Virus record (IMG/VR): IMGVR_UViG_3300021225_000464
Location: 1 to 60,001 of that record
Source: a virus
Direction: 5' to 3' (one strand)
Length of the DNA: 60,001 bases
Shown here: positions 19,875-59,321 of the stretch, one piece after another
Layout: every line of letters begins with the position of its first letter
How positions within the stretch are numbered: the first letter of the stretch is position 1
Made by a program: the position numbers and the translations under genes
Notes under the pieces: generated by a model
Told to the model about the DNA's origin: nothing
Databases searched by the model: none
What the model saw: the letters and a program-made list of their open reading frames with translations, nothing else

Positions 19875-19889
19875 AATATTTATAAATAT
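19875..19889. promoter_or_regulatory. 15-bp divergent intergenic region with two overlapping TATTTAT motifs
   Basis: AATATTTATAAATAT separates two divergent ATGs. TATTTAT ends 6 nt before the + ATG and 7 nt before the - ATG, the same geometry as 8252-8266. Confidence 0.6.
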
Positions 19890-23198: not shown

Positions 23199-23205
23199 CA
23201 ATAAA

Positions 23206-23230
23206 AAAAAGGGGTTTATTCCCCCTTTTT
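23206..23230. terminator. bidirectional rho-independent terminator
   Basis: A-run then GGGG, a short loop, CCCC and T-run between the convergent peptidase and ClpC-like genes. The ClpC stop lies in it. Confidence 0.75.
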
Positions 23231-25279
23231 CTTTCTAGCTCTTTTTGGTTTTGGTGTTTCATCAGGTTGAGATTCAACTTCTGATATTGACACTTCTTCT
23301 TCATTTATTTCAATGTTGTAGAACTTATCAAGTACAATCTTTTCACGTAGTACTTCGTCAGAAATGTAATCTTCAATTTTTTCTTGAATTGCTCTTTTCA
23401 ATGGACGTGCACCATAGACTTCATCAAATCCAACTTTAGAAACAAAGTCAATTACTGATTGTCCGAAACTAATATTGTATCCCAAATTAGTCAAACGTGA
23501 TTTTAATTTGTTAATCTCAACCAAAACAATTTTTTGAATATCATCATTTTGAAGAGTGTTAAATACGATTACTTCATCTAAACGATTGATGAACTCAGGA
23601 GCAAAGTGGTTCTTCAATTCTTTGTTCAACATTGTCTTCTTCAACTCTTCATTGGCGTAAACGTTGTTGTTACCACTGAATCCGATACCTGCTCCGAACT
23701 CTTGCATCTTTTTTACACCTAAGTTTGAAGTCATGATAATCAAACAGTTTTTGAAATTGATTTTTCTTCCAAAACTATCTGTCATGTAACCTTCATCTAA
23801 TAGTTGGAGTAATGCTGAAAAGATATCTTTGTGTGCTTTCTCTACTTCATCAAATAATACTACAGAGTATGGTTTTGTTTTAACTTGTTCTGTAAGTTGT
23901 CCACCTTCATCATAACCTACATAACCAGGAGGTGAACCAATCAAACGAGATACTGTATGTTTCTCTTGGAATTCAGACATATCTACTCGGATAAGATTTT
24001 CATCACTACCAAAGATTTGTTTCGCCAATTCTTTTGCTAATAATGTCTTACCAACACCTGTTGAACCCAAGAAGATAAATGAACCAATTGGTTTATTTGG
24101 GTCTTTAATACCTAATCTGTTTCTACGGATTGATTTGGCAATCTTTGTGATTGCTTCTTTTTGTCCAACAACACATTTATTCAATTCTTCTTCTAAATTG
24201 ATAAGAGTGTTTTTATCATCCAAACTAAGTTTTGTTAGTGGGATTTTTGTCATCGTTGAAACAACTTCATAAACAAGTTCTTCAGAAATTGACTTTCTAT
24301 TTTCTAACAAAGTTTGTTCAAACTTTTTCTTTTCAATATCAAGTTGTGATAAAACTTTCTTTTCTTTATCTCTTAAGTTTGCGGCTTCCTCGTAGTTCTG
24401 TTTTTTAACTACAAGTAATTTCTGTTGTTTAATCTCTAATGCTTGACGTTTTAATTCGTCAATAATTTCAGGATTTTTAACATCTACCTGAGCTCTTGCT
24501 CCGACCTCATCCAAAATATCAAATGCTTTATCAGGAAACTCACGGTCTGTGATATATCGTTCAGCCAAATCAACACAGATTTGTAGAATTTCATCGGTAT
24601 AATTTACCTTGTGATAATTTTCGTATCTATCCTTAACATTTTTAAGGATTTGTAATGTTTCTTCTTTTGTTGAAGAACTAACAATTACTTTTTGGAAACG
24701 ACGGTCTAACGCTCCGTCTTTTTCAATTTGTTTTTTGTATTCATCCAATGTGGTTGCTCCAATACATTGTATTTCACCTCGTGAGAGAGCTGGTTTTAAG
24801 ATGTTGGACGCATCCATTGAACCTGAAGCATTACCTGCCCCAACAATCGTATGGATTTCATCAATGAAAAGAATAACATTTGGGTTTGCTTGAATTTCTT
24901 CCAAGATAACCTTTAATCTTTCTTCAAATTGTCCACGATACTTTGTTCCTGCGACAACCGAGTTCATCTCTAATGATAGGATACGTTTATCTACAAGATT
25001 TCTTGGACAATCGCCATCAAAAATCTTCATTGCTAATCCTTCTACGATTGCAGTTTTACCACAACCTGGTTCACCAATGATAATTGGGTTATTTTTCTTT
25101 CTTCTTGAAAGAATTTGTGCAATACGTAATATTTCGTCTTCCCTTCCGACAACGGGGTCTAACTTACCTTCTTCGGCAAGTTTAATAAGGTCACGACTAA
25201 AATTGTCTAACACAGGTGTAGAAGAGTTTGATTCTACTTTTTTTGGTGCTTTACCGCTTTCACCTACTGAATCTGTCAT
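23216..25279 (-). CDS. ClpC-like AAA+ unfoldase lacking the Clp-N domain
   Basis: 687 residues from ATG 25279 ([14 protein letters not shown]); a TTG 45 bases upstream is less likely. D1 has GEPGCGKT (69-76), VILFIDEIH (about 135-143) and [13 protein letters not shown]-like linker follows ([14 protein letters not shown], about 307-320). D2 has GSTGVGKT (about 425), the pore loop [20 protein letters not shown], and GARPLKRAI. The roughly 150-residue N-terminal substrate/adaptor domain of ClpC and ClpA is absent. A GIGFSG sequence in D2 fits the IGF-type loop that docks ClpP, so it may use host ClpP. The C-terminus is Lys/Arg-rich. A -7 box TATATTTG lies 49 nt upstream. Confidence 0.92.
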
Positions 25280-30514: not shown

Positions 30515-32260
30515 ATGAGTTTATCTAAAGAAGCCGTTTTAATGGAGTATGCCAAGTGTATGAAATCAACACCATACGCCCTTAAAACTTATTTACAGAC
30601 ATATGACAACACTGTTTCAAAGTATGTCCCGTTAGAGTTATTCCCTGACCAAATTAGTTTGGTTGAGGATTATGAAAATTATAATGAAAATATTGCACTA
30701 AAGTATAGACAAGCTGGTGTATCTACGGTAACCGCCGCTTGGTCATCCAAAAAACTTGTTTTTGCTAAAAAGAATAGTCCTGAAAAGATATTGGTTATTG
30801 CAAACAAGTTGGATACTGCGGTGGAAGTTGCAAATAAAATTAGAGGATTTACTGAACAGTGGCCAAGTTGGGTAGGTGTTGGGTTTTCTGCTGAAAAAAA
30901 TTCACAAAGACATTTTAAGTTAACCAATGGTTGTGAAGTTAAGGCGGTTGCAACATCTAAAGATGCTCTCCGTGGTTACACACCAACTATATTAATATTT
31001 GACGAAGCCGCTTACATTGATGCTGATGGTGATTTTTGGGCGGCCTGTATGGCATCCTTATCCACAGGTGGTAAAGTGATAGTTGTGTCAACACCAAACG
31101 GATATGACCCAATCTACTATGAAATTTATGACCAGGCATTAAAGGGGATGAATGAATTCAAAATTTCCGAAATGGTATGGTGGAAAGACCCAAGATATGC
31201 GAGAGATTTATCATTAATCAATGTTAAAGATGTTATTCATTATTATTTAAATCGTAATGAATATCAAAATGTTGAGATTGTCGAATATAAAGATAAAGAA
31301 AAAAACTTTGATGAAATTAGACAGTTGATTGCTCAAGGATACAAACCAAGTTCTTCTTGGTATGAGTCAATGGTTAAAAAACTTAAGTATGATAAACGTA
31401 AAGTTAATCAAGAGTTAGAATGTGCATTTCTTGGTTCAGGTGATAACGTATTTGATACTGATTTATTGGAAAACTTAAGGATAAATATGGTTAAAGAACC
31501 ACCTACAAAGATGATGGGTGGTGGACTATGGATATGGAAAGAACCTGAAATGGGTAAAAAATATATTATGGGTGTTGATGTATCTCGTGGGGATAGTGAA
31601 GACTTTTCAACATTTCAAATTGTTGATTTTGATTCAAGAGAACAGGTTGCAGAATACGTTGGGAAACTTCCTCCTGATACTTTGGCTGAAATATGTTATA
31701 AGTGGGGTAATATGTATAATGCATTTATTGTTATAGATATTACTGGTGGTATGGGTGTTACAACATCTTTAAGATTAAGAGAGTTGGGTTATAGAAACAT
31801 GTATGTTGATGGTGTTGATGTATCTAATAAATGGAAATACGACCCAAAAGCAACTGAAAAAATACCAGGGATTAATTTTAATGCTAAAAGAGTTCAGATT
31901 ATTGCAACTTTTGAAGAATATCTAAGACATGGATTTAGAATAAATTCATCTCGTTTATTAAATGAAATGAACACATTCATTTATATGAATGGACGACCTG
32001 ACCACCAAAAGGGACAACATGATGACTTAATTATGTCAGTTGCTATGGCACTTTATGTTGGTGAGTCATCATTTACTTCACTTAATAAGGTAACAAATCA
32101 AACAAAGGCTATGATTAATTCATGGACTGTTAATACAAATGATTTTAACAGAAAACAATTTATGGACCCTGTCATGCCACATCAACAAGAAAACATTAAA
32201 CGAGAAGCTACGAAAAGCGACTACGAAAACTATTTATGGTTATTCGGAGGAAGACGATAA
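30515..32260 (+). CDS. terL: terminase large subunit (T4 gp17-like)
   Basis: 581 residues. The ATPase has the variant Walker A KYRQAGVST (about 64-72) and Walker B ILIFDEAAY (about 162-170), then motif III VIVVSTPNG. The RNase H-like nuclease follows: GVDVSRGDSEDFSTF (about 351-365), IVIDITGGMGV (about 405) and QHDDLIMSVAMAL (about 500), giving the acidic triad. This packages DNA into the prohead using ATP and cuts concatemers. Length and order match the T4 family. No small terminase subunit is recognised beside it. Confidence 0.96.
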   Translation: MSLSKEAVLMEYAKCMKSTPYALKTYLQTYDNTVSKYVPLELFPDQISLVEDYENYNENIALKYRQAGVSTVTAAWSSKKLVFAKKNSPEKILVIANKLDTAVEVANKIRGFTEQWPSWVGVGFSAEKNSQRHFKLTNGCEVKAVATSKDALRGYTPTILIFDEAAYIDADGDFWAACMASLSTGGKVIVVSTPNGYDPIYYEIYDQALKGMNEFKISEMVWWKDPRYARDLSLINVKDVIHYYLNRNEYQNVEIVEYKDKEKNFDEIRQLIAQGYKPSSSWYESMVKKLKYDKRKVNQELECAFLGSGDNVFDTDLLENLRINMVKEPPTKMMGGGLWIWKEPEMGKKYIMGVDVSRGDSEDFSTFQIVDFDSREQVAEYVGKLPPDTLAEICYKWGNMYNAFIVIDITGGMGVTTSLRLRELGYRNMYVDGVDVSNKWKYDPKATEKIPGINFNAKRVQIIATFEEYLRHGFRINSSRLLNEMNTFIYMNGRPDHQKGQHDDLIMSVAMALYVGESSFTSLNKVTNQTKAMINSWTVNTNDFNRKQFMDPVMPHQQENIKREATKSDYENYLWLFGGRR

Positions 32261-32909: not shown

Positions 32910-34748
32910 ATGAGTGAAAATAAACTAACGGTATGGCAGAGGTTATCTCAAACATTTGGACCCAATTCTTTATTGGGGCAAGATTACCCTACCTACAAAT
33001 ATGATAAGAAAGAACTTTTAAAGACAACTTCTAAATCAGAATACGAAAGAGAAAAACTTCAAGCCCAACAAACATATTATTTAGCAAACCAATGGGGTAG
33101 AATTGAAAATAATCTGTATACCCAAGCGGTTTACTATGAACCAACTCGTTTAGCGTCTTTTTATGACTATGAGTCAATGGAATTTACACCTGAAATTGGT
33201 GCAGCTTTAGATATTTACGCTGAAGAATCTACAACAATTAACCAAGATGGTTATATGTTACAAATCTATTCTGAGTCGTCAAGGATTAAATCAATCTTAG
33301 GTGATTTATTTAATAACGCTTTAGACATTAACACCAACTTACCTATGTGGATAAGAAACACTTGTAAGTATGGTGATAACTTTGTTTATTTAAAATTAGA
33401 CCCTGAGAAAGGAATTATTGGTTGTATGCAGCTACCAATCATTGAGATTGAAAGATTGGAAGCAGGTATGGGTTCTCATTCTACAGATTCTACAACAAAC
33501 CCTGAAAAAAAACATTTAAAATTTAAATGGAAACAAAAAGATTTAGAGTTTAACACATGGGAAATTGCTCACTTTAGATTGCTAGGTGATGATAGAAGAT
33601 TACCTTATGGTACTTCAATGTTAGAAAAGGCAAGACGTATTTGGAAACAATTATTATTGTCAGAAGATGCTATGTTGATTTATAGGACATCAAGAGCTCC
33701 TGAAAGACGTGTATTTAAAGTATTCGTTGGTAACATGGATGATGCGGATGTTGAACCATATATCCAAAGATTCGCCAATAAGTTTAAGAGAAGTCAAACT
33801 GTTGACCACAAGACAGGGAATGTTGATATGAGATTTAATCAAATGGCAGTTGACCAAGATTATTTTGTTCCTGTTAGGGATACAACACAAACAATGCCTA
33901 TTGAGACATTACCTGGAGCTGCAAACCTATCAGAGATTGCGGACATTGAATATATCCAAAAGAAATTGTTAACGGCTCTTCGTGTTCCTAAAGCGTTTTT
34001 AGGTTTTGAAGAAACTGTTGGTGATGGTAAGAACTTATCATTACAAGATATTCGTTTTGCAAGAACTATTAACAGAATTCAGAAAAATATGATTTCTGAA
34101 TTAAATAAAATTGCAATCATACATTTATTCATTTTAGGATTTGAAGATGAAATTTCTAATTTCCAATTAAGTTTGACAAATCCATCAACACAGGCGGATT
34201 TAATGAAAATTGATGTATGGAAAGAAAAAATTCTTCTTTATAAAGATTTGGTTGCGGACCCAGGTAGTGGTATTGCGGCAGTTTCACAATCATGGGCTAA
34301 GAAACACATTCTTGGATTTTCTGATGAAGAAATCAAACTTGATTTACAACAACAACGTATTGAAAGAGCTGTTGGTGAAGAACTTAAGAAAACTGCTGAA
34401 GTTATTACTCACACAGGGTTATTTGATAATCTTGATAAGTTATATGGAAAGAAAGAAGGTGAACCAGCAGGAGCACCGTCAGAAGGAGGTGGAGCTCCAC
34501 CATCATCTGATTTAGGCGGTTTTGGAGGAGGTGAAAGCTCACCACCTGAATCACCAGCACCTGCAGAACCAGCACCTGCAGAAGCGGCTCCAACAGTACC
34601 TGAAGGTGATAATAGTCGTAATTCTGAACTTAATATTTTATTAGAAAATTCAGGAATGTTACATGAAGATGAACTAATTGATTTGGGGCGTGTTCAAGAA
34701 TCTTTAGGAGAAATGGGTACTCAATTAGATAAACTACTTAAAGGTTGA
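32910..34748 (+). CDS. portal protein (T4 gp20-like)
   Basis: 612 residues. The core carries T4 portal landmarks: EFTPEIGAALDIYAEE (about 91-106), MWIRNTCKYGDNFVYLKL, RLPYGTSMLEKARRIWKQL, YRTSRAPERRVFKVFVGN (about 256-273), and ETLPGAANLSEIADIEYIQK. It forms the dodecameric ring for DNA passage and nucleates head assembly. The C-terminal 90 residues are a Gly/Pro/Ala/Glu-rich low-complexity tail, longer than in T4, ending in a helix. No [LI]-x-E leader is expected or seen at the N-terminus. Confidence 0.95.
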   Translation: MSENKLTVWQRLSQTFGPNSLLGQDYPTYKYDKKELLKTTSKSEYEREKLQAQQTYYLANQWGRIENNLYTQAVYYEPTRLASFYDYESMEFTPEIGAALDIYAEESTTINQDGYMLQIYSESSRIKSILGDLFNNALDINTNLPMWIRNTCKYGDNFVYLKLDPEKGIIGCMQLPIIEIERLEAGMGSHSTDSTTNPEKKHLKFKWKQKDLEFNTWEIAHFRLLGDDRRLPYGTSMLEKARRIWKQLLLSEDAMLIYRTSRAPERRVFKVFVGNMDDADVEPYIQRFANKFKRSQTVDHKTGNVDMRFNQMAVDQDYFVPVRDTTQTMPIETLPGAANLSEIADIEYIQKKLLTALRVPKAFLGFEETVGDGKNLSLQDIRFARTINRIQKNMISELNKIAIIHLFILGFEDEISNFQLSLTNPSTQADLMKIDVWKEKILLYKDLVADPGSGIAAVSQSWAKKHILGFSDEEIKLDLQQQRIERAVGEELKKTAEVITHTGLFDNLDKLYGKKEGEPAGAPSEGGGAPPSSDLGGFGGGESSPPESPAPAEPAPAEAAPTVPEGDNSRNSELNILLENSGMLHEDELIDLGRVQESLGEMGTQLDKLLKG

Positions 34749-34772: not shown

Positions 34773-35483
34773 ATGAAATTCGGAGTAATAAAAACATTAG
34801 TTGAGAATAAATTAATTGAATCGTTTAGACAAGATTCACTTAAATCAGATATGAGTTTGTTTAACAAAAAACTTTTAAAAAATAAAGATTTTTGTAAAAT
34901 GATGTCAATCTATGATAATTTAAATGAGAATAAAGGATTAGATAAGGAAACATCAAGGTACTTAGCTGATGATTTATTTTTTGAATTCAATAAACTTAAA
35001 TTATCTGAACAAACTTTAAGTTTTATAAAAAAATGGACAAAAGATATAATAGTTGAAAACAAATACGAAATTATTGACAATTTATTATATGTTGATTTAT
35101 CAAACCCTGAAAAAAAATCATTGGCTAAAAAAACAATTGTTGAAAGTTTATCTAAAACTAAACCGATTGTTGAAAGTAAAAAAACAAATGTCCCAATTAG
35201 TTCTTTATTAAAAATTGCTAATTCAACGGCTGAAAAATATTTAGATAATTTAAATGAATCTGAAAGAAATTCAGTAAAAGAAATATTAACATCAAAGGAT
35301 GAAAATTTAAAAACAAAATTTACTGAATTAAAAGAAAATGCAATTCAAAAAATTGATGTACTTATTTCTGAATCAGATGAAGAGTTAACAAAAGTTTTAG
35401 CGGAAACAAAAGAAAGATTATCTAATGTTAAACCATCTAAAAAAGAATATATTAAATTATTAAATTTAACTCAAAATTTATAA
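34773..35483 (+). CDS. helical Lys/Glu-rich putative prohead core protein
   Basis: 236 residues, almost all helix-forming, rich in Lys, Glu, Ser and Leu, with no Trp except one. Several L-V-E, L-I-E, I-V-E and V-E-S sites are scattered along it (for example MKFGVIKTLVENKLIES at the start), as expected for a core protein cut to pieces. Position between portal and protease matches T4 gp67/gp68. It is followed by a terminator embedded in the opposite rpsU gene. Confidence 0.6.
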   Translation: MKFGVIKTLVENKLIESFRQDSLKSDMSLFNKKLLKNKDFCKMMSIYDNLNENKGLDKETSRYLADDLFFEFNKLKLSEQTLSFIKKWTKDIIVENKYEIIDNLLYVDLSNPEKKSLAKKTIVESLSKTKPIVESKKTNVPISSLLKIANSTAEKYLDNLNESERNSVKEILTSKDENLKTKFTELKENAIQKIDVLISESDEELTKVLAETKERLSNVKPSKKEYIKLLNLTQNL

Positions 35484-35663
35484 TTCAATATTTTTTGAAT
35501 TTTTATACATCGCATTTTTTAAAATCTGACGTTTTGTGTCAGATTTTTTTTTGTAGTATTTTCCTTCCTGTAGTTTTTTTACTAATTGAGTTTTAACTAC
35601 TTTTTGTTTAAACATTTTGAGGGCTTTTTCTACCTCGTTATTTCTGACAGGGATAATTAACAT
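35478..35663 (-). CDS. rpsU: ribosomal protein bS21
   Basis: 61 residues: MLIIPVRNNEVEKALKMFKQ, T-Q-L-V-K-K-L, YYKKKSDTKRQILKNAMYKN. The start MLIIPV, the A-L-K-x-F-K-x-K helix and the (R/K)-R-x-x-x-x-x-A-x-Y ending are those of bS21. It keeps a C-terminal Tyr (residue 53) but lacks a few host-typical Arg positions. In Bacteroidetes ribosomes, bS21 with bS18 and bS6 hides the anti-Shine-Dalgarno tail, so a phage copy could change which mRNAs initiate. It sits alone on the - strand within the head gene block. A TATTTAT motif lies 36 nt upstream. Confidence 0.9.
   Translation of the reverse strand: MLIIPVRNNEVEKALKMFKQKVVKTQLVKKLQEGKYYKKKSDTKRQILKNAMYKNSKNIEL
35521..35552 (+). terminator. terminator embedded in the antisense bS21 gene
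   Basis: AAAATCTGAC, loop GTTTTGT, GTCAGATTTT with nine T in a row. It would end the 34773 transcript but is also coding sequence (KKSDTKRQILK) of the opposite gene, where it forms the same hairpin followed by TTTT then A-run. Confidence 0.85.
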
Positions 35664-35730
35664 TTTTTTGACAACTTTGTTATTATTGATTATTATTAAA
35701 TAAATAAACGAAGATATGAAAAATTTGTAA

Positions 35731-36195
35731 ATGAAAAAAGGAAAAAGTTGTGTAATGAAAGGTTACAAACAAATTAAGTGCTCGTATGGAACAGTGGATT
35801 CAAAAAGTTTAAAATCAATTTATCTAAATATACAATCTTGGGTTGAACCAAAAGGGTTAGAAATGGATTGGATGAGACCCGTATCAATTCTCAATAAAAA
35901 TATTAAAACAGTTTTAAGTGAAATAATTAACAATAATTTATTTAATGATAAATTTATTGTTGATTTAGATTTAAGAACAAGTGGTATATCTCTAAACAAG
36001 AGGTCTTTTATGAATTTAGAAATAACTTTTTTTGTGAAAAATGACACAGATTTTAAATCAAGTGAATTAAAAAACGAATTAAAAAATATCATATCAACAA
36101 TAGAAAAAGATTGTTTTAAAAATTCAAAATATTTTAAATTTTATCTTACAAAGAAGGATAAATTAAATACTACCGATAAAATGGAAAGTATTTAA
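35731..36195 (+). CDS. hypothetical protein in the head block
   Basis: 154 residues, basic, not recognised. It contains SIYLNIQSWVEPKGLEMDW, FIVDLDLRTSGISLNKRSFM and FFVKND, an alternating strand pattern. It lies between core protein and protease, so a head-assembly role is possible. An alternative ATG eight codons in (MKGYKQIKCSYG) may be the real start. Confidence 0.5.
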   Translation: MKKGKSCVMKGYKQIKCSYGTVDSKSLKSIYLNIQSWVEPKGLEMDWMRPVSILNKNIKTVLSEIINNNLFNDKFIVDLDLRTSGISLNKRSFMNLEITFFVKNDTDFKSSELKNELKNIISTIEKDCFKNSKYFKFYLTKKDKLNTTDKMESI

Positions 36196-36217: not shown

Positions 36218-36937
36218 ATGCAAAATTATAAAATATTAGGACCAAGAGAGACAGGAAAAGGTATTTTAATTGAAATGGATGCGGGATATGTTTCCCCAAC
36301 AGAAAAGAATAATCAAACATTTCTACAAGAGAGTAGAGACTTTAAAGATTATTCTAAACCATTTGAATTCTATGCCGTTCTACAAAAATATAACACACCA
36401 AATAGAAACGGTAGAATATATCCTGAAAGAATTCTAAAAAGAGAATCTGAAAATTATATAAAGAACTATATTGGTAAGAAAACTGCATTGTCAGAACTTA
36501 ACCACCCTGAGTCTTCATTAATAGATTTAGATAGAGTATCACACATGATTACAGAGATGTGGTGGGATGGTAATGTTCTATTAGGTAAACTATTACTTCT
36601 GACTTCACCAGGGTTCCATGAAAGAGGTATCGTATCAACAAAGGGTGACCAAGCGGCAAACCTATTAAGATTAGGTGTAACGTTAGGTATATCGTCAAGA
36701 GGGGTAGGTTCACTTAAAAAGGTTGGGGACCAAAACGAAGTACAGGATGATTTTGAATTAATTTGTTTTGACTTAGTGTCTTCACCATCAACACCAGGAG
36801 CTTATTTATTTACTGAACCTGATGGTAGATTTGCGTTTGAAGAAAACTTACAAGAAGAAAATGAAATGAAAGCTGCAAGAACAGTTAACAAATCGCTTGA
36901 TTTAATGGGAAGACTTACCGATTATTTAGGAAAATAA
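36218..36937 (+). CDS. prohead protease (T4 gp21-like)
   Basis: 239 residues. NRNGRIYPERIL (about 63-74), ALSELNHPES (about 89-98) with the catalytic His, and GVTLGISSRGVGSL (about 148-161) with the catalytic Ser are the hallmarks of the T4 gp21 family. This serine-type protease trims capsid, core and internal proteins after [LI]-x-E. An N-terminal stretch with LQES at 37 could be its own activation site. The many [LI]-x-E leaders elsewhere in the window are its likely substrates. It lies directly upstream of a small DUF4494-like gene and the scaffold. Confidence 0.95.
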   Translation: MQNYKILGPRETGKGILIEMDAGYVSPTEKNNQTFLQESRDFKDYSKPFEFYAVLQKYNTPNRNGRIYPERILKRESENYIKNYIGKKTALSELNHPESSLIDLDRVSHMITEMWWDGNVLLGKLLLLTSPGFHERGIVSTKGDQAANLLRLGVTLGISSRGVGSLKKVGDQNEVQDDFELICFDLVSSPSTPGAYLFTEPDGRFAFEENLQEENEMKAARTVNKSLDLMGRLTDYLGK

Positions 36938-37181: not shown

Positions 37182-37208
37182 AAAAGGGGACAAAAGTCCC
37201 CTTTTTTT
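37182..37208 (+). terminator. rho-independent terminator
   Basis: AAAAGGGGAC, loop AAAA, GTCCCCTTTT with T-run; separates the protease transcript from the scaffold and capsid genes. Confidence 0.9.
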
Positions 37209-38680: not shown

Positions 38681-40543
38681 ATGGGAGCATTATTAGAAAG
38701 TGGATTAGTAGGTAACATCGGTCTTAAGCACTTGAAAGTTATCAAAGAAGACACTATAAACAAATGGGACAAATTAGGGTTCCTTGAAGGTCTTAGAGGC
38801 CACCTAAAAGAAAACGTTGCTCAGTTATATGAAAACCAAGCATCACATTTAATTAACGAAGCTACGACTGACGGAGCATCAGGTTCATTTGAAACTGTTG
38901 TATTCCCAATCATCAGACGTGTATTCTCTAAATTATTAGCTAACGAAATCGTTTCTGTACAAGCTATGAACTTACCAATTGGTAAATTGTTCTACTTTGT
39001 ACCTCAAATCCAAGGTTATACTGGTGCTACATCAACTCCAGGTGGTGTACCAGGTGTTGCTAATCACCAAGCTCCATATGGTTCTCCAAATGGACCATCA
39101 ACTCCAGGTGCTGGATATAATGATTCAAACGCATATCCTAAAAACCTTTATGATGCATTCTACGAAGGAACTGAGCCAGGGTTAAACCCAGGTGGTCTTT
39201 TTGATTATTCAAAAGGTGCATGGTATTGGGTGACAGGTGCAACTAACACTGTTGCTTGGTCAAACGGTACATTAATCTATTCAGCATACGGTGCTGGTGA
39301 ATATAGAAAAGTTCTTATCACTTTATCAGGTTTCACAAACGCTGGTGAGGGTAAATTAATTGCTCCTGATGGACAAGAAATGGATACTGAAACATTCTTA
39401 TCTGATTTAACACTTTTCCCATCACAAGGTTTGGCTAACCAAATCAATACTTCAGGTGGAAATGTTGGACTTTATACTCCACTTTTATATCGTGTTGTGA
39501 CACAAAAATATGGTAAAGGTATTGTACAGTACGGTAGTACTCAATCAACTACTTTCCCTGATATCCCACGTGGTACTGTGTCTTACCCAGGTAACGGTGG
39601 TTCTTATAATAATGTATGTTCTCAAGATGGTAACATCATCTTAGAAATTGACTTACAAGTTCCAGCATGTATTTCTTGTAGTCAATCAACTCCTGATGGA
39701 TACACAGGAACAACTATCTTAGCTGGTTCAGGTGCTACTAACGATTCATTCGTTAAGGCATATTGGAAGCGTTACCAAGAAATGGAATTTGAAGACAGAA
39801 TTGGTGAAGTTTCTTTTGACCTTCAATCAGTAACAGTTTCTGTAACTGAAAGAAAGTTAAGAGCACAATGGTCTCCAGAACTTGCTCAAGACGTTGCGGC
39901 GTTCCACAACATTGATGCTGAAGCTGAATTAACAGCTTTATTATCTGAACAAGTTGCTGCTGAAATTGACCGTGAAATCTTACGTGACTTACGTAAAGGT
40001 GCAGCGTGGACATTACGTTGGGATTACAACGGATGGAAGCGTCTGAATAACCAATCAACTCCTTATACTCAAAAGGACTGGAATCAAACGTTGATTACTG
40101 CAATCAACCAAATTTCAGCTCAAATCCACAAGTCTACTTTAAGAGGTGGAGCAAACTGGATTGTTGTATCTTCTGAAATCAGTGCTATTTTTGATGACTT
40201 GGAATACTTCCACGTATCAAACGCGGCTCCTGAGCAAGACCAATTCAACATGGGTATTGAAAGAGTTGGTACTTTAAGTGGTCGTTACCAAGTATACCGT
40301 GACCCATACTTCCCACCAAACACTGTGTTGATTGGTCACAAAGGTACTTCTTTATTGGATACTGGATATATCTACGCTCCATACGTACCACTACAATTAA
40401 CTCCAACTATGTATAACCCATTCAACTTTACTCCAATCAAGGGTATTATGACACGTTACGCTAAGAAAATGGTTAATAACCGTTTCTACGGACGTATCAT
40501 CGTTGACGGTGTTCGTACATTTGACTTAAACGAATTAAGATAA
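38681..40543 (+). CDS. major capsid protein (T4 gp23-like)
   Basis: 620 residues. The N-terminal propeptide ends ASHLINE at residue 60, with Ala-Thr-Thr next, matching the T4 gp23 processing site (cut after Glu-65). The core has RVFSKLLANEIVSVQAMNLP, LRGGANWIVVSSEISAIF (about 488), YRDPYFPPNTVLIGHKG and YAPYVPLQLTPTM, ending MTRYAKKMVNNRFYG. An insertion of about 60 Gly/Pro/Asn-rich residues (about 110-170) makes it longer than T4 gp23. It follows the scaffold gene by 28 bases and is closed by a strong terminator. Confidence 0.96.
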   Translation: MGALLESGLVGNIGLKHLKVIKEDTINKWDKLGFLEGLRGHLKENVAQLYENQASHLINEATTDGASGSFETVVFPIIRRVFSKLLANEIVSVQAMNLPIGKLFYFVPQIQGYTGATSTPGGVPGVANHQAPYGSPNGPSTPGAGYNDSNAYPKNLYDAFYEGTEPGLNPGGLFDYSKGAWYWVTGATNTVAWSNGTLIYSAYGAGEYRKVLITLSGFTNAGEGKLIAPDGQEMDTETFLSDLTLFPSQGLANQINTSGGNVGLYTPLLYRVVTQKYGKGIVQYGSTQSTTFPDIPRGTVSYPGNGGSYNNVCSQDGNIILEIDLQVPACISCSQSTPDGYTGTTILAGSGATNDSFVKAYWKRYQEMEFEDRIGEVSFDLQSVTVSVTERKLRAQWSPELAQDVAAFHNIDAEAELTALLSEQVAAEIDREILRDLRKGAAWTLRWDYNGWKRLNNQSTPYTQKDWNQTLITAINQISAQIHKSTLRGGANWIVVSSEISAIFDDLEYFHVSNAAPEQDQFNMGIERVGTLSGRYQVYRDPYFPPNTVLIGHKGTSLLDTGYIYAPYVPLQLTPTMYNPFNFTPIKGIMTRYAKKMVNNRFYGRIIVDGVRTFDLNELR

Positions 40544-40563
40544 TCTTATCTTAATGAATAATA

Positions 40564-40594
40564 AAAAGGGACAAGAAATTGTCCCTTTTTTATT
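40564..40594. terminator. bidirectional rho-independent terminator
   Basis: AAAAGGGACAA, loop GAAA, TTGTCCCTTTT between the capsid gene and the convergent gene at 40590. Confidence 0.9.
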
Positions 40595-41836: not shown

Positions 41837-42078
41837 TAGATACTTTTACTAACTCTAATACCTGGTTTAAGAGGTTCGTATTCTCTTTTTGGTCTTGAAT
41901 ATTGACCTGTGCTAAATTCAGAATTTAAGGCTTCTAAAGCACCTCTATATCCACCTGTTTCATCTGACAGTAATCTATCAATAACGTCTTGAATTAAACT
42001 TCTATCAAGTCTTCCGTATTCTGGTTCTTCTGACATCTCTCTTAATGCTTTTTTTATTTGTGTATCTAACTTTGACAT
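41833..42078 (-). CDS. hypothetical protein
   Basis: 81 residues: MSKLDTQIKKALREMSEEPE, then IQDVIDRLLSDETGGYRGAL. Helical and charged; not recognised. It shares an operon with the gene at 42089 (10-base gap) and converges with 40871. Confidence 0.5.
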   Translation of the reverse strand: MSKLDTQIKKALREMSEEPEYGRLDRSLIQDVIDRLLSDETGGYRGALEALNSEFSTGQYSRPKREYEPLKPGIRVSKSIY

Positions 42079-42088
42079 GATTTAAATA

Positions 42089-42493
42089 TTAACAATTTAT
42101 TTTACTATAAATATTATCAAGTGAGTGATTTATTTGAGTTTCAAGTTCTTTTTCAATATTCATTGCTCTTAACTCCATTTCTTTACGAAAATAATTAATA
42201 AGTTTTTCCCACTGAGTACTACTTAATTTGATAAAATAACTGTAGGTATGATTTGTAACCGTAACTTGTCCACCATCCATTGTAATAAAAATACCTAATC
42301 TATCATTTCGGATATATTTTTTATCAGATATAGGGGCAATAATTAGTTCAGAATCTTCTGAATGGATGAGTTTTCTACATATAGTGGAACATTTCCTCAC
42401 GTTTGACATATATATGTCAAATTCGGTGTCCTTTCGGTCTAATTTACGTAAATATAGACGATATTTAACCCACAGTTTTTTAATTATAGTCAT
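42089..42493 (-). CDS. hypothetical protein with host-type promoter
   Basis: 134 residues: basic N-terminus (MTIIKKLWVKYRLYLRKLDR), two Cys (C-S-T-I-C), SELIIAPISDKKYIRNDRLG, and a mixed strand and helix C-terminus. No known family recalled with confidence. It has a perfect host-consensus promoter, unlike its - strand neighbours, so it may be an early gene embedded among late genes. Confidence 0.55.
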   Translation of the reverse strand: MTIIKKLWVKYRLYLRKLDRKDTEFDIYMSNVRKCSTICRKLIHSEDSELIIAPISDKKYIRNDRLGIFITMDGGQVTVTNHTYSYFIKLSSTQWEKLINYFRKEMELRAMNIEKELETQINHSLDNIYSKINC

Positions 42494-42512
42494 GTCATTT
42501 ATGATTTGACTA

Positions 42513-42543
42513 CAAATATACTATGATTTTTTAATAATTCAAA
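42513..42543 (-). promoter_or_regulatory. Bacteroidetes-type promoter (TTTG-N19-TATATTTG)
   Basis: On the - strand: TTTG (42543-42540), a 19-nt spacer, TATATTTG (42520-42513), leader of about 15-20 nt to the ATG at 42493. Confidence 0.75.
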
Positions 42544-42551
42544 ATAATTGA

Positions 42552-43079
42552 TTAACAATATGCCCCTGAACAATGTTTTTTCCCATCTAAACCTGGCATA
42601 CGTCCTTTACAAACTTGTACAGCATAACCATTAGCATAAGCTGAAGGATATACGTCAAATTTTGATTTAGCGGCAGCCTTACCACGAGCACATAATTTAG
42701 TACCTGCCTTTTTACGACCTTCAGTCATAGATGTCATAGATAATCCCAGTGCTTTATTAGGGTCCATTCCATCCGCCTCATCTGCAAGAGCTAAATCATC
42801 AAAATTAATATTTTCAATAACCTCTTCAGATTTCCACATGTCACCACTTTTTGTTTCATTCATTAAGAAATCAAAAACTTGGTCCATATTATTTTTGGCT
42901 TCAGCAATGTGGTCTTGAGCCCAATCGTGCCCATTAGATAGAATTTTTTCAACCATATCATGGTCTAAATCTAATAATAATCCACATTGTCTTTTCATTT
43001 GTTCTAAATTACTGAAAAACATATATCTTTCAGATTCTTCTTTAAGTACTTTTTTAATTATGTTATTTAAATTTTTCAT
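42552..43079 (-). CDS. putative internal head protein with basic Cys domain
   Basis: 175 residues from ATG 43079; a TTG three codons upstream overlaps the preceding gene. The leader MKNLNNIIKKVLKE ends in L-K-E at 14. The acidic middle is followed by a basic Cys-containing C-terminal domain: KLCARGKAAAKSKFDVYPSA, then YAVQVCKGR and HCSGAYC. I recall the G-K-A-A-A-K-x-K-F-x-V-Y-P-S-A-Y-A-N motif from T4-like phages of marine bacteria. Same layout as 6771 and 40871. Confidence 0.72.
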   Translation of the reverse strand: MKNLNNIIKKVLKEESERYMFFSNLEQMKRQCGLLLDLDHDMVEKILSNGHDWAQDHIAEAKNNMDQVFDFLMNETKSGDMWKSEEVIENINFDDLALADEADGMDPNKALGLSMTSMTEGRKKAGTKLCARGKAAAKSKFDVYPSAYANGYAVQVCKGRMPGLDGKKHCSGAYC

Positions 43080-43080
43080 A

Positions 43081-43599
43081 TTACGCAATCATATCATCTT
43101 CTTTTAGGTCATTACAGACAACATCCAAAAACACTTCAATATCGTGTTCTAATCCTTCATAATCTTCAAATACATTAGTCCCTTCGGTTGTGTTTTCAAA
43201 CATACAAGTTTGAAAATTACCTTCTGTATCACAGTAAATTTCACCATAATAATCACTATCATCAACTGTTAGATATCCTGTATGTATTTTTTCATCTTCA
43301 GTATCTTGTGTTGATTCATATCTAAATTTAAACGATGGCATTCCTGGAAATTCAAAAGACCAAAAACCACCAGCTTTTGTCATAAAATCATCTTTAGATG
43401 ATGGTTCATCTTCTATTGATATACCTTTAGTAAATTTCTGAAGAGTTTCTTTTTCTTCAGGTGTGATTGATTCCATACCTGATTGACTAATTTTATCTAA
43501 AATTACATCAATTTTATCCTCACCTGGTTGTAATGCTTCGGATAATACAAATTTCAATAATTTTATATATTCGCCCTCTTTTAATGTTACTTTTTTCAT
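43081..43599 (-). CDS. putative internal head protein with capsid-targeting leader
   Basis: 172 residues. The leader MKKVTLKEGEYIKLLKF ends V-L-S-E at 21, with Ala next, an ideal prohead protease site. The mature part is acidic, with a beta-rich stretch (SFKFRYESTQDTEDEK, TGYLTVDDSDYYGEIY). No family recognised. It sits 1 base upstream of the 42552 gene and overlaps the structural gene at 43596. Confidence 0.65.
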   Translation of the reverse strand: MKKVTLKEGEYIKLLKFVLSEALQPGEDKIDVILDKISQSGMESITPEEKETLQKFTKGISIEDEPSSKDDFMTKAGGFWSFEFPGMPSFKFRYESTQDTEDEKIHTGYLTVDDSDYYGEIYCDTEGNFQTCMFENTTEGTNVFEDYEGLEHDIEVFLDVVCNDLKEDDMIA

Positions 43600-45092
43600 T
43601 TTTTGTTAACTATTTGAAACGTTAGTGTTTTTTTATAAGTATTCACTTCACCTGAAGAATATACTTTTATATCCACATTATATTCATTAGGGATTTTATC
43701 TCTAGTATCAAATACAAAATAATATTCATTTGAACTTCTATTAACTTGTGTCCAAGATTGGACTTCCACTTCTGTAGTACCTTCTTTAACATAAATTCTA
43801 TAATAGGAACTAACAGGTGTTAATATTTGTGAAGCAGTATATGCCTTTTTAATCACAACCCCAACTCTACGAATATCAGTATTTAAAACTTTTTCATCTT
43901 GTTTAATTCCATAAAAGTCAAAACCGTATAATTCAGGTTCTTTACTTTCAGGTGATAATGAGAAACCAAAACTATTAGGTAAAACAGTTAAATCATTAAC
44001 AACATCTGGAAGTGTTACACCGTTATAAATTAAATTAGACCAAGTGTCAGTAAACATACATGGTGTTGTAGCAGTTATGGCACTTGTTGTAATTTCATAA
44101 ACTCCTTGTGTTTTTAAACACGCTGTATAAGTACCAATAGTGTTCCCTATGTTATTTTCTAAAATTACTGTTGGTAAACTATCTAAAGTAATAGGTTGTC
44201 CATTGATGTAAGAGTATAGATAAAGTTTGTTACTATTATGTGAATAAAAAGAATTTCTATCGTCTTGTATTAAATCATTATATGTTGTTTCAAGATAAGG
44301 CTCGTAAAAAGTTTGTGTGTGTCTTGTAAAAAACCCTACAGAATAATTTTCAGTTAATCCTGTTAAATTTTCTAATTCAGGTAAAAACGCAACACCCCAT
44401 CCTGTAAATCCTGATGTTGAACCTGTAAGATATTGATTAATTTCATTTGTCATATCAAATTCAATATCCTCATTCCCAAATTCAAAATGTTGGGTATCAA
44501 CAATTATTAAATCAGAATAATTAACTAAACTATTATTTGTATTATCATATATTCCATTTGTACTCCAACCACTTAATGTAGTTGTTTGATACCAATTTGA
44601 AGGTCTTTGTGAGTAAGCTTTATCTTGAGGTAGGGCAATCGGTGATAATAAACCATTACCTGTGTTTAAAGTTCTTTGAACATCGTAATAATCGTATCCT
44701 ACCCCTTCATCCCACAACTGAGAGTTTCCAGTATTTCCTGATATTAATGGAATTCTAAATAAGATTAAATCAAACGATGTCGCTCTTAATCTTCCTTGAC
44801 TTGTATATTCATTAGATAATACTTCTTTATCAAAAGAAGAAGTATTAGTCATTTTAAGAATATGTGTTATACCTGAAAATCCTGTACACCCTGTTGATAT
44901 TGTTTTATCTTGTATTTTTCCAACAAGTTGTGAAAGGTCTAAATTAAATATAAATCTACTATATCCAGGTGAAGCTATCACAGAATCTGCCGAACCAAAA
45001 TAAAGTTGCGTGTATGGTGACTTTCCAGTATTAACATAACTGTTTGAAAGTATTGTATTGTTTTTACTAAAATATGAACGATGGATTGACAT
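43596..45092 (-). CDS. virion structural protein, beta-rich (tail/baseplate-type)
   Basis: 498 residues, Ser/Thr/Asn/Tyr-rich with long strand-forming stretches and a Trp-rich middle (GWGVAFLPELENL). No charged leader, no enzyme motif. It looks like a fibre, collar or baseplate periphery protein by composition, but I cannot identify the T4 counterpart. It is transcribed with the OB-type gene upstream (45113), with its own TATTTAT motif overlapping that gene's stop. Confidence 0.6.
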   Translation of the reverse strand: MSIHRSYFSKNNTILSNSYVNTGKSPYTQLYFGSADSVIASPGYSRFIFNLDLSQLVGKIQDKTISTGCTGFSGITHILKMTNTSSFDKEVLSNEYTSQGRLRATSFDLILFRIPLISGNTGNSQLWDEGVGYDYYDVQRTLNTGNGLLSPIALPQDKAYSQRPSNWYQTTTLSGWSTNGIYDNTNNSLVNYSDLIIVDTQHFEFGNEDIEFDMTNEINQYLTGSTSGFTGWGVAFLPELENLTGLTENYSVGFFTRHTQTFYEPYLETTYNDLIQDDRNSFYSHNSNKLYLYSYINGQPITLDSLPTVILENNIGNTIGTYTACLKTQGVYEITTSAITATTPCMFTDTWSNLIYNGVTLPDVVNDLTVLPNSFGFSLSPESKEPELYGFDFYGIKQDEKVLNTDIRRVGVVIKKAYTASQILTPVSSYYRIYVKEGTTEVEVQSWTQVNRSSNEYYFVFDTRDKIPNEYNVDIKVYSSGEVNTYKKTLTFQIVNKK

Positions 45093-45105
45093 TTACTCTT
45101 TTTAG

Positions 45106-45112
45106 ATAAATA
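45106..45112 (-). promoter_or_regulatory. TATTTAT late-promoter-like motif
   Basis: On the - strand, the motif ends 13 nt before the ATG at 45092. Confidence 0.4.
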
Positions 45113-46708
45113 TCAATTTATACGAATATTTTGATTTAGAACTTTACTATCAAAAAGTTTCCATTCGGAATCTAATTTTGTTTTAGTTGTTGCAAAAGAA
45201 TTTCCTTCAGCTGTCTCAAATGGAGTACGTCTATGATATTCGTGGATATGGTTTAATAAAAAATCAACCATTAAATTTAATAAATCTCTTAAAGCTTCCC
45301 CTCTAACCATTGAATTTGTTGATTCGTAATAATTACCTGAAAGAGTTGGTTCATTTATTCCATATACTTCGGAACTATTTAATTCTATTTTAGGGTAACC
45401 TGGAATCTGTGAAGAATTTGAAACTATAAATAATTTTTCTGAACCTAATACCGCATACCCAAAATCACCATTTTCAATTTTAACGGGTGTATAACTTACT
45501 TTTTTTGAAATTTGTTGTAATCCATATTTATCTTTTTTAGATATCAAACCCGCTCCTGGATTTTCTAATGGTTTTGATTTTGGGAACTCAACTAAATTTA
45601 ATAATTTATTTACGTTTTCCCATTCATTCCCTATAGGTCCATTGGCAATTTTTTGTGTGGCAATTGATGGCCGGTAATAAAATGGGAATCTTTTATCTGT
45701 AATGTCAAGTGTTTGTCTAGGTGTTGTATAATTTAAATTAATACGTCCATCATTTAATCCTGATATTACTTTATTAATAATTGCTGCAACTTCTTCTATA
45801 GTCCCAATATTTAAAAATTCATGAGTAAAAGAAGTGTAAATATTTCCTGTAATAATAATTTGTGAAGTAAAATTATTAGTTAATGTTTCAGGTCCTTTAC
45901 CTGGTAAATTATAAATGTTTATTATACCAGAAAAAGGTCCGCTACTACCTAAACCATAGGTAATTTGATATTCAACTAATTTTAAAATTTGTTCAGAAAC
46001 CGTATTATTTTGAGTTATTGTTTTTTTAGTTCCTTTAGTTGTTCTTGCATCAAAATTTGATAATTGTAAAAAACTTCTTTTTGTATTAACAATTGGATAA
46101 ACTAATGAATTTAAAATTGGTGTTTTTTTTGAACGTAATAATATTTCAGTATCTTTTAAAATAATATCTGACCTTCCTTTTGAATATAATGCAAAATCTT
46201 CAGGTTCTGCAAATACTCCTTTGGTTAGTGAGTTAAAATAACCTTTAGATGACTTAAGCGGAATTCCTGGTTTAACATTCGCTCCACTCGCTAATGTACT
46301 TCTTGATTGATTTGAATTTTCTTGTGAAAGAGCCATCATTGATGATATTGGACCCTTCAAATAAAATTGGTTTTTTCTACCTGTATTCTCAGACCAATTA
46401 GAATAAATTAAATGTACATAGTCGTTTACCGCAGGAATTATATTAACTTGAACAGGAAGAAATGATAAAAAAACAAAGGGGTCTGAAAATGCTGGTTCAG
46501 TAAATTCTTTATACCAAAATTCTTCTCTTATATCTGTTTCTTGGTCATTTAAAACTGATTTTTCTCCAATTTTAATATCCCTTAAAGATGATACAATTTG
46601 TTGGAATTTTTCCCATTCAGGTTTAACACGAATTCGTTCACGCAAATCAATGTCTGAAATGTCAATGACAGTCCCCCCAAATAAAATTCTATGACTGTCT
46701 TGACTCAT
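45113..46708 (-). CDS. baseplate hub/wedge-like protein
   Basis: 531 residues. VNIIPAVNDYVHLIYSNW, KNQFYLKGPISSM and GRSDIILKDTEILLRS resemble the OB-fold region of T4-like baseplate proteins, in which a 'G-R-x-D-x-I' strand precedes the domain. The C-terminus (LLNLMVDFLLNHIHEYHRRT) is helical. Assignment to hub or wedge is tentative. It overlaps the short coiled-coil gene upstream by 20 bases. Confidence 0.6.
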   Translation of the reverse strand: MSQDSHRILFGGTVIDISDIDLRERIRVKPEWEKFQQIVSSLRDIKIGEKSVLNDQETDIREEFWYKEFTEPAFSDPFVFLSFLPVQVNIIPAVNDYVHLIYSNWSENTGRKNQFYLKGPISSMMALSQENSNQSRSTLASGANVKPGIPLKSSKGYFNSLTKGVFAEPEDFALYSKGRSDIILKDTEILLRSKKTPILNSLVYPIVNTKRSFLQLSNFDARTTKGTKKTITQNNTVSEQILKLVEYQITYGLGSSGPFSGIINIYNLPGKGPETLTNNFTSQIIITGNIYTSFTHEFLNIGTIEEVAAIINKVISGLNDGRINLNYTTPRQTLDITDKRFPFYYRPSIATQKIANGPIGNEWENVNKLLNLVEFPKSKPLENPGAGLISKKDKYGLQQISKKVSYTPVKIENGDFGYAVLGSEKLFIVSNSSQIPGYPKIELNSSEVYGINEPTLSGNYYESTNSMVRGEALRDLLNLMVDFLLNHIHEYHRRTPFETAEGNSFATTKTKLDSEWKLFDSKVLNQNIRIN

Positions 46709-46883
46709 ACTCGTTTAAAATTTTGTTATATGTTGATTCTAATTTATCTAACTTTTTAGTTAATTCAATAACTAATTTTTTTGTGGTATCAAATTCCTTT
46801 GATAAAAAATCCATAGCCAATACTAAATCTTTATTAGATTTAGATTTATGGTCAATTAATATTTCTTTTATTTTTTCTGACAT
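46689..46883 (-). CDS. short coiled-coil protein
   Basis: 64 residues, almost all helix with heptad-like Leu/Ile spacing (KKLVIELTKKLDKLESTYNK). It may be a small assembly or chaperone-like partner of the baseplate proteins on either side. Lies 1 base after the large gene at 46885. Confidence 0.55.
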   Translation of the reverse strand: MSEKIKEILIDHKSKSNKDLVLAMDFLSKEFDTTKKLVIELTKKLDKLESTYNKILNEYESRQS

Positions 46884-46884
46884 A

Positions 46885-48825
46885 TTAAAAATATTTTCCA
46901 GTTACCCTTACATTACCTGTTAATTGTCCTGTTGGTGGTATCGTTTCCGCAACTATAACACCCTCAACTTTACCATTTTTAGCTCTTTCTTTGAAAGATG
47001 ATGTGAAAACTGCTATTTTTTCAATAGTACCGTAATCAGTTGAACCATTTATACCTGGACCTGTTGGGATACCTATTTTTTCCATTTGTAAAATATATTC
47101 AACAACTTCTTTTTGGGGTAAGACACCTGAAAGATATTCTGTTAAATACAAAAATGATGTTGGTAAAATGTATTTTTTAGGTGGTAATGTTAATTTTAGT
47201 AAATTTAAAATTTGATTAACAACTGATTTACAACTTCTAAAATCTTGAATTAAATTAGCAACACCTTTTGCTGTTTTTCCAATGTTATTTAATTCTTCCA
47301 TACTATCTAATATTGATGCAATTGCATATTTTGACATTTTTGATTTTTCAATAATTAAATCTTTTATGGTTCGTTTAACTAATTTTAAAATGTCTTGTTT
47401 TAATTGATTAAATAACGCCTCAATAAATAATGCACTTATTTTTGATGTAACATCAATTATAAATCTTCTATTTGTTTTAGCAAAGGCCATTAAACCTGGT
47501 GATTGAGCTTCAATATCATTAATAATATTGTTATCCAAATTTGATATAGTACTACTTAATGCTTTTGACATTGTAATAAAAGGAAATATTACTTTTGGTG
47601 ATAGAATAGATTGAATTACTCCTGTTACAAAATTATTAATTATATTTTTGTCATATGATACTAAAGGTAATATTGACTGTAATTGCCATCTATTATCATT
47701 GGATAAATTAAAATAAACTTCTTGCATAATTGTATCCATATTACTACCATTATCATTTATTTCACTAATAGTTTCAAAAACATAATTTACATCTGTAATA
47801 GGTAATTGAAGATTATTACAATCAATAAATTCAACATAACCTCTACGGATTATTGAAATTTCATTTTCTATTTGTGATAATTGATTAGGTGTGAATTCAA
47901 AAAAAGTATCAGACACATCATCAAGTTCTGGGTATTTTGAAATACCACTAACATCAATTTCTTGATTATAATCAAAACACATCCCCAAAATTCTTTGTAA
48001 TATTTTAATAAATCTTTTATTATCATTTAGGTTAGAAGGTCCTGGATTAGTATTAGCACTAAGTATATTTAAAACCAAATCAAGAATTTTGGCAACTGCA
48101 TTATTAAAATCAAATAACCTTAAAGTTTTAAAATAGTCAATAATGAAATCGGTAACTCTATTTGGAGCATTTATACGGTCTAAAAGAACTATTTTAAAAT
48201 AATTCCCTTGTGTAACACCATTAAATGTCTCAAATGAAATTCTAAAAAGTTCTTGTCCTGAAGTACCATAATAAGTTTGTTGTATTGATGGAGTTTGAAT
48301 TAAATCGTAAAAAAATCTATTTGTGGCTCTTGGTATTGATGTGGGGTCATATACATTTTTTTCATATATAGACGCACCTATTATAGAGTTAGGGTTTAAT
48401 TTTAATTGTTTAAATAAATCAATATACTCAACATTTATGTATAATTCCTGATTTGTTTGATATACCTCTTCCTGAGAACAACCTAACGCCGATATCATGG
48501 AACTTAATAAAATCTCTTCAATAACACTTGGTAAATTTTGTAATTGATTTTTTAAAATTTTTATAAAAAAATTTGGAGTAGCATTTGTATTTGATTGTGA
48601 GATTAATTCAATTAATTCTTCATAAGAATTTGATGCTCTTTCTTTTATTTTTCTAGCTAAAGTTGCGGAATCTAAATTTATTTGAATACTATCTGATTTT
48701 TTTTGTAATTTATCAGTAGTTGTTTGAATAAAATTATTATAGTCATTTTTTACTTTCGTAAATTTATCAATGGCTTTAACTCTTTCTTTACTTTCTTTAA
48801 ATCCTTCTTTAATATCTTCAGCCAT
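46885..48825 (-). CDS. large virion structural protein (tail/baseplate-associated)
   Basis: 646 residues. The N-terminal 100 are helical and Lys/Gln-rich; the middle has many Ile, Asn and Phe residues with helix-rich stretches; the last 70 (VEYILQMEKIGIPTGPGING and later) are strand-rich. No enzyme motif. Its start ATG overlaps the preceding stop as TAATG, indicating coupling. It is likely a baseplate or tail structural protein; a T4 equivalent is not recognised. Confidence 0.6.
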   Translation of the reverse strand: MAEDIKEGFKESKERVKAIDKFTKVKNDYNNFIQTTTDKLQKKSDSIQINLDSATLARKIKERASNSYEELIELISQSNTNATPNFFIKILKNQLQNLPSVIEEILLSSMISALGCSQEEVYQTNQELYINVEYIDLFKQLKLNPNSIIGASIYEKNVYDPTSIPRATNRFFYDLIQTPSIQQTYYGTSGQELFRISFETFNGVTQGNYFKIVLLDRINAPNRVTDFIIDYFKTLRLFDFNNAVAKILDLVLNILSANTNPGPSNLNDNKRFIKILQRILGMCFDYNQEIDVSGISKYPELDDVSDTFFEFTPNQLSQIENEISIIRRGYVEFIDCNNLQLPITDVNYVFETISEINDNGSNMDTIMQEVYFNLSNDNRWQLQSILPLVSYDKNIINNFVTGVIQSILSPKVIFPFITMSKALSSTISNLDNNIINDIEAQSPGLMAFAKTNRRFIIDVTSKISALFIEALFNQLKQDILKLVKRTIKDLIIEKSKMSKYAIASILDSMEELNNIGKTAKGVANLIQDFRSCKSVVNQILNLLKLTLPPKKYILPTSFLYLTEYLSGVLPQKEVVEYILQMEKIGIPTGPGINGSTDYGTIEKIAVFTSSFKERAKNGKVEGVIVAETIPPTGQLTGNVRVTGKYF

Positions 48826-49187
48826 TATAGATTAAATTTTTGAATGTCAGAGTTAATGTCTTTATCAATTAAACCTTGTAAGATATCATCATCCATTGAT
48901 GTTATATCAAAACTATCTTCTTGATTACTTCTTTTTTCCCATATATTAGATTGAAGCTTAGATAGTGTTAATTTTTTCTCAACACAATCATTAATAATTT
49001 TTTGTTGTTTTTCAATTACAGGACCAATAAGTGTCATATCTTCTGGTTCCTTCATCATTGAAATCATTTTATTTTGAATTCTAATGGCAGTTGAACGTTG
49101 TTCAACCAATTCATTATATATCTCTTGCATAAGAGCTAAAATAGACTCTTGTGTAAAATTTATTTGTTTTTTCTTTGGTTTGGTCAT
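48825..49187 (-). CDS. small helical protein next to the late sigma factor
   Basis: 120 residues, helical, with acidic C-terminus (TSMDDDILQGLIDKDINSDI) ending IQKFNL. Not recognised. Position between sigma factor and baseplate genes, and the short hydrophobic tail, could fit a co-activator like T4 gp33 or a small tail chaperone. Promoter motif TATTTAT lies 4 nt before its ATG. Confidence 0.5.
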   Translation of the reverse strand: MTKPKKKQINFTQESILALMQEIYNELVEQRSTAIRIQNKMISMMKEPEDMTLIGPVIEKQQKIINDCVEKKLTLSKLQSNIWEKRSNQEDSFDITSMDDDILQGLIDKDINSDIQKFNL

Positions 49188-49191
49188 ACCA

Positions 49192-49198
49192 ATAAATA
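49192..49198 (-). promoter_or_regulatory. TATTTAT late-promoter-like motif
   Basis: On the - strand, the motif ends 4 nt before the ATG at 49187. Confidence 0.35.
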
Positions 49199-49214
49199 TT
49201 TTTGGTATTATTTT

Positions 49215-50758: not shown

Positions 50759-50760
50759 AA

Positions 50761-51819: not shown

Positions 51820-51822
51820 AGT

Positions 51823-55269: not shown

Positions 55270-55322
55270 TAAATGTTTTTTAGTTTAAATAACACAGTAA
55301 TTGTATTACCGTACATATTTTT

Positions 55323-56189: not shown

Positions 56190-56193
56190 ATTT

Positions 56194-57805: not shown

Positions 57806-57806
57806 A

Positions 57807-58694: not shown

Positions 58695-58696
58695 AT

Positions 58697-59320: not shown

Positions 59321-59321
59321 T

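Follow-up and report, generated by a model that had tools for sequence, protein, structure and literature searches.

The 3' third of the bS21 gene of this phage, which is carried on the strand opposite to the head gene cluster, appears to serve also, when read on the other strand, as an element resembling an intrinsic terminator for the head genes upstream of it. Taken as a whole, the explanation that we favour, and consider probable, combines a bS21 locus already known from Bacteroidota phages with an antisense terminator inside the gene and a presumed late role of the protein at the ribosome. The gene itself, its location and the idea of ribosome takeover are not new, since they have been published for freshwater Bacteroidetes jumbo phages (PMC9723584). 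For a terminator embedded in a phage bS21 gene, no earlier report was found in the open-access PMC literature.

In the window (the whole stretch of DNA analysed here, 60,001 nucleotides), the + strand gene order is TerL, portal, g236, 154-aa gene, head protease, likely scaffold and MCP, with bS21 filling the space between g236 and the 154-aa gene on the opposite strand:

30515 to 32260, + strand: large terminase subunit (TerL; phrog_2, 1.8e-39).
32910 to 34748, + strand: portal protein (phrog_213, 3e-65).
34773 to 35483, + strand: g236, a gene of unknown function (236 aa) with a 6-nt overlap with the 3' end of bS21.
35478 to 35663, - strand: bS21 (rpsU-like) gene, 61 aa, assigned from Pfam, NCBIfam, PHROG and PDB matches and dN/dS.
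35731 to 36195, + strand: neighbour gene of unknown function (154 aa), one of two possible 'bS21_CN' of Chen et al. 2022.
36218 to 36937, + strand: head maturation protease (phrog_207, 3e-44).
38681 to 40543, + strand: major capsid protein (MCP; phrog_138, 6e-66).

Chen et al. 2022 described 47 Bacteroidetes phage genomes with bS21, the complete ones measuring 293-331 kb, and in these freshwater jumbo phages it is encoded on the reverse strand, in the midst of the TerL, portal, protease and MCP genes (PMC9723584). The window shows the same placement, with bS21 within about 5 genes of all four. The original prediction had the gene antisense within the head genes and called this an odd location. 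Its opposite-strand position between TerL/portal and protease/MCP is indeed as claimed; however, the gene is intergenic rather than nested, overlapping only 6 nt of g236 (4-18 nt in every relative with a readable g236), and the location is not odd in this phage group, in which it is conserved and has been on record since 2022 (PMC9723584). What is unusual about it is the embedded head-strand terminator, which the original prediction missed.

The bS21 ORF runs from an ATG start to a TAA stop, and its coding status is certain. PF01165 of Pfam (E=4.1e-10, 39.7 bits against a cut-off of 27) and TIGR00030 of NCBIfam (2.6e-12, 46.4 bits against 28.95) both match above their curated cut-offs over residues 4-57, the full domain, and the PHROG match is phrog_21469, 'ribosomal protein S21'. 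The closest solved structures are 9i5v chain 9 and 7jil chain z, the latter being the F. johnsoniae ribosome, and the protein resembles Bacteroidota bS21 most. The predicted identity and Bacteroidetes affinity of the protein are thus borne out, as is the emphasis placed on Tyr53: this residue aligns with Tyr54 of F. johnsoniae, all 43 distinct phage proteins of the locus have a tyrosine there, and an aromatic residue at the Tyr54 position was reported as conserved in phage bS21 (PMC9723584). Purifying selection is evident from dN/dS values of about 0.08-0.28 against relatives, and the ORF is intact in more than 100 IMG/VR loci. Relatives were taken from IMG/VR; a tblastn search with bS21 against annotated phage records returned no match even at E up to 10.

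The embedded element is the following:

35521 to 35547, + strand (head strand): candidate intrinsic terminator hairpin inside bS21 codons 39-48, assessed by fold, synonymous null and covariation.

On the head strand it reads AAAATCTGAC-GTTTTGT-GTCAGATTTT, followed by further T (nine T in total, the T9 run lying at about 35544-35552). The stem measures 10-12 bp, the loop 3-7, and the fold reaches -11.8 kcal/mol (z -4.1), so that a stable stem-loop is followed at once by a T-run, as in intrinsic terminators. It begins 38 nt past the g236 stop codon and lies wholly within the bS21 coding sequence; the g236 transcript would end at this candidate terminator. It is the sole strong terminator in the window which is antisense in an ORF and has a full T-run, while the window's other convergent gene pairs have their terminators between the genes. 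Strong intergenic AAAA-stem-TTTT hairpins occur at 4639-4666, 5994-6019, 23203-23233, 37182-37205 and 40563-40590, several of which can be read as terminators on both strands.

Of the 56 distinct bS21 ORFs in the IMG/VR collection, 50 lie at this head locus; distinct DNA sequences were counted because IMG/VR contigs are overlapping fragments. A strict head-strand terminator is present inside 40 of the 56 ORFs and a bulged version in two more (L162 and L222), which together represent 42 of the 50 genes at the head locus. In one gene, L211, a hairpin of unrelated sequence is found at another place in the ORF. No recognisable terminator was found in eight of the 50 genes at the locus, and those of the eight that can be placed form one TerL clade; the arrangement is therefore common, but not obligatory. 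No antisense terminator of this kind was present in 69 host bS21 genes, an even draw of the host class which replaced an earlier, mostly Bacteroidales set dropped as biased.

As the amino-acid motif (KKSDTKRQI) is itself conserved across these phages, the hairpin might be a by-product of protein conservation and codon bias. The data argue strongly against this reading, which we consider highly improbable. When the same proteins were recoded with phage codon usage in 3000 trials, only 4-82 of the 3000 synonymous recodings (0.1-2.7%) yielded such a terminator. Among 41 genes for 61-aa proteins, four stem codons are fixed family-wide wherever the residue occurs (Ser41 TCT, Asp42 GAC, Gln46 CAG and Ile47 ATT), although their synonyms are in use elsewhere, and the ratio of observed to expected silent diversity is 0.25 inside the hairpin versus 0.65 outside it. 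Covariation across 24 distinct hairpins revealed two compensated pairs, and these compensatory changes alter the protein (SD to SV in L021 and RQIL to RQTL in L157). The hairpin of L211 is unrelated to the usual one.

The same inverted repeat could instead act in the bS21 mRNA, through autoregulation, RNA processing or stability, and the bS21 strand does fold the same stem at -11.0 kcal/mol. Three observations nevertheless point to the head strand and make action in the bS21 mRNA improbable. The long T-run follows the stem on the head strand only, a terminator with a T-run on the bS21 strand being found in none of the 56 distinct ORFs. All one-sided hairpin changes that keep a pair do so as G-U in the head-strand RNA, which corresponds to a C-A mismatch in the bS21 mRNA. 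Finally, a terminator occurs at the same place in phages that have no bS21.

Nine distinct bS21-less loci carry a head-strand hairpin within the gap between g236 and the 154-aa gene, and in nearly all of them the T-run passes directly into TTGAC(A/T), and a -10-like box follows approximately 17 nt further on; by its sequence signals, this arrangement is a putative terminator/promoter relay. In phages with bS21 the parts of the relay are split, the stem and T-run lying in the 3' third of bS21 and TTGACA beside its ATG. Distant bS21-less phages keep both neighbour genes at 42-66% identity, and no bS21 was found anywhere in the 223-kb (L132) and 94-kb (L139) records. As both neighbours also occur without bS21, the functional link between bS21 and its neighbours proposed by Chen et al. 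2022 is weakened.

Closer to the window, there are phages of 77-84% TerL identity that have no bS21 and phages of 95% identity that have no more than remnants of it, and both neighbour genes are retained in them. Two phages whose TerL is 95% identical to that of the window, L185 (gap near 5379-5513) and L097 (gap near 5134-5250), retain only the first 11-17 bS21 codons and have lost the terminator. Since the first codons remain while the rest and the terminator are gone, these represent natural bS21 deletions, and bS21 is therefore dispensable in at least some phages. In L020 the terminator is kept, and the 5' part of bS21 and the promoter are absent, possibly owing to an assembly fault. On a quick TerL tree of the IMG/VR relatives, which has no firm root, the presence and absence of bS21 requires six changes. 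We infer one old acquisition followed by repeated loss, a direction that is subject to the rooting of this tree; the losses perhaps occurred through slippage between T-runs. The six changes, together with the remnants found in L185 and L097, make repeated insertion at the same site a less likely history than repeated loss.

Two promoter-like elements lie in the short interval upstream of bS21:

35668 to 35696, + strand: TTGACA-N17-TATTAT promoter-like site, reading into the 154-aa gene.
35699 to 35706, - strand: TATTTATT, candidate late promoter of bS21, 35 nt before its ATG.

The former is the best sigma70-like site of the 28-43 kb region, matching at 11 of 12 positions, and its T-run abuts the bS21 start codon. 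Its TTGACA is kept in nearly all relatives with bS21 and in those without it. Because a scan for sigma70-like promoters gave no general enrichment (66 found versus 69 expected), only this site, which is conserved among relatives, is cited. A very short frame (ATG AAA AAT TTG TAA; 35717-35731, + strand) stops right where the 154-aa gene begins and is seen again in close relatives; it may encode a leader peptide or be there by chance.

The second element belongs to a motif, TATTTAT, found 19 times within 20 nt before start codons of the window versus 0.5 expected, an approximately 37-fold excess that is seen likewise in relatives. It is located 3-18 nt before the starts at 30515, 32910, 34773, 36218, 37276 and others, the genes so preceded including TerL, portal, g236, protease and scaffold. 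On the bS21 strand, TATTTAT(A/T), in some cases TATTTATG, is kept before bS21 in the clades with the hairpin and is missing before bS21 in the clade without it. TATTTAT is thus a candidate phage-specific late promoter element. Two divergent gene pairs have only 15 nt between their genes (8252-8266 and 19875-19889), and these 15 nt form the near-palindrome TATATTTATAAATAT; the layout resembles that of a single bidirectional late promoter for the two genes of a pair, with next to no leader.

Elsewhere in the window, a phage tmRNA is encoded at 20813-21207 on the - strand (Rfam RF00023, 132 bits), with a predicted tag, AKLSTLGLIRTEEVTVA, that does not end in the usual LAA; a gene for an ATP-dependent protease (phrog_4871) is located near it, at 23216-25279. 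The GC skew flips at about 42 kb, beyond which (42000-60001) nearly all genes are on the - strand, including sugar-nucleotide and glycosyltransferase genes (53402-54373 and 49952-50758).

T4-type late promoters read TATAAATA. In several genes of the window TATTTAT ends 3-7 nt before the ATG, and the mRNAs would therefore be nearly leaderless if transcription starts where it does in T4 late promoters. The very short leaders of the original prediction are to this extent plausible, as a prediction from sequence. Its statement that the phage mRNAs lack Shine-Dalgarno (SD) sequences agrees with our count: over the genes of the window, matches in the SD window equal those in a mock window, and SD enrichment was accordingly rejected. 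Before phage bS21, an extended SD (9-13 bp) was not found in 25 distinct leaders, the longest match being 3-5 nt, while a match of 9-12 nt is present in 13 of 69 sampled host bS21 genes. As a basis for a preference for phage mRNAs, however, the lack of SD is weak: Bacteroidota host mRNAs are SD-less too (PMC9976891), and its absence therefore cannot separate phage from host messages.

According to McNutt et al. 2023, Bacteroidota ribosomes hide their anti-SD with bS21, bS18 and bS6, and ribosomes lacking bS21 favour the SD-bearing rpsU, which is thereby autoregulated (PMC9976891). The same authors note that bS21 is by far the commonest phage-carried ribosomal protein, and their comments on its role in phages are speculation (PMC9976891). 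On this background we propose that a TATTTAT promoter of the head-gene class drives late transcription of bS21, phage bS21 having been found to be expressed late in lake metatranscriptomes (PMC9723584). The protein would then take up the bS21 position in the host 30S subunit, where its Y53 would stack against the 3' tail of the 16S rRNA, and would keep ribosomes bS21-replete in late infection and hence competent on SD-less messages. Because bS21-replete ribosomes translate the extended-SD rpsU poorly (PMC9976891) and phage bS21 has no SD, synthesis of the host protein should fall and that of the phage protein should be unaffected, so that the autoregulatory loop of the host would work to the advantage of the phage copy; this step is limited to Flavobacteriales-type hosts, since many sampled host bS21 genes lack an extended SD. 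On the opposite strand, a run of lysine codons (A9) would provide the T-run, and S41-D42 and R45-Q46-I47 would spell the arms of the stem, so that the terminator may partly dictate the protein sequence. Both the incorporation of phage bS21 into ribosomes and its benefit are inferred.

Phage bS21 has been hypothesised to replace host bS21 (PMC9723584), and the published view, shared by the original prediction, is that it shifts mRNA choice towards phage messages. The N-terminal half does differ from host bS21 at positions 22, 23, 26 and 32, and in addition to the argument of Chen et al. 2022, a Pelagibacter phage bS21 was incorporated into E. coli ribosomes (as cited in PMC9723584). Since host and phage messages are both SD-less, however, no discriminating mRNA feature is known, and close relatives without bS21 exist; we consider such a shift rather unlikely. 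An extra-ribosomal or virion-associated protein would suit a gene placed among head genes, and packaging into virions was suggested as possible (PMC9723584), but the protein retains Y53 and the core positions of its family, which leaves little probability for a role outside the ribosome.

A further reading, which we put forward tentatively as possible but short of an even chance, is that the bS21 coding sequence and the head-operon terminator form a single co-evolving element. The terminator would have fixed the phage-specific D42, Q46 and I47 in the C-terminal part of the protein, the part which in F. johnsoniae bS21 contacts the 16S tail. Position 42 is V or I in 65 of 67 distinct host proteins versus Asp in 36 of 43 phage proteins, and Ile47 is also phage-specific against the even draw of the host class. 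bS21 would thus sit inside the terminator/promoter relay (stem, T-run and TTGACA), and deletion between the end T-runs may repeatedly remove the gene while saving termination and promoter. Convergent transcription may furthermore make bS21 and the upstream head transcript interfere mutually.

For the presumed benefit of phage bS21, this locus offers sharp tests. The material comprises a putative strand-specific terminator inside a ribosomal-protein gene and natural bS21-deleted sisters of phages that carry the gene, together with the predicted advantage of the phage copy in the host rpsU loop. Caution is warranted with the phage-specific residues 42, 46 and 47, which may owe their identity to antisense termination and not to a function at the ribosome.

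Several known systems can be compared with this locus. T4-type late promoters are likewise AT-only octamers near head-gene starts, and this phage has T4-like TerL and MCP; the motif here is TATTTAT and is not assigned to that class. Host rpsU of Bacteroidia belongs to the same family and has the tyrosine that stacks on A1534 (PMC9976891), whereas the phage gene lacks an SD, encodes a protein one residue shorter near the N-terminus and carries a putative terminator antisense in its ORF. The phages of Chen et al. 2022 (clades a-e) similarly carry a reverse-strand bS21 between two hypothetical genes inside TerL-portal-protease-MCP, with similar GC, an aromatic residue at the Tyr54 position, an SD-less setting and the same proposed function; in that report, however, terminator, hairpin and promoter are unmentioned (PMC9723584), and bS21 was absent only below about 70% TerL similarity, whereas here it is missing at 77-84% identity. 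Finally, as in terminators of convergent genes (e.g. PMC3027695), an intrinsic terminator would separate convergent transcripts, but the phage element is contained entirely within the convergent gene's coding sequence.
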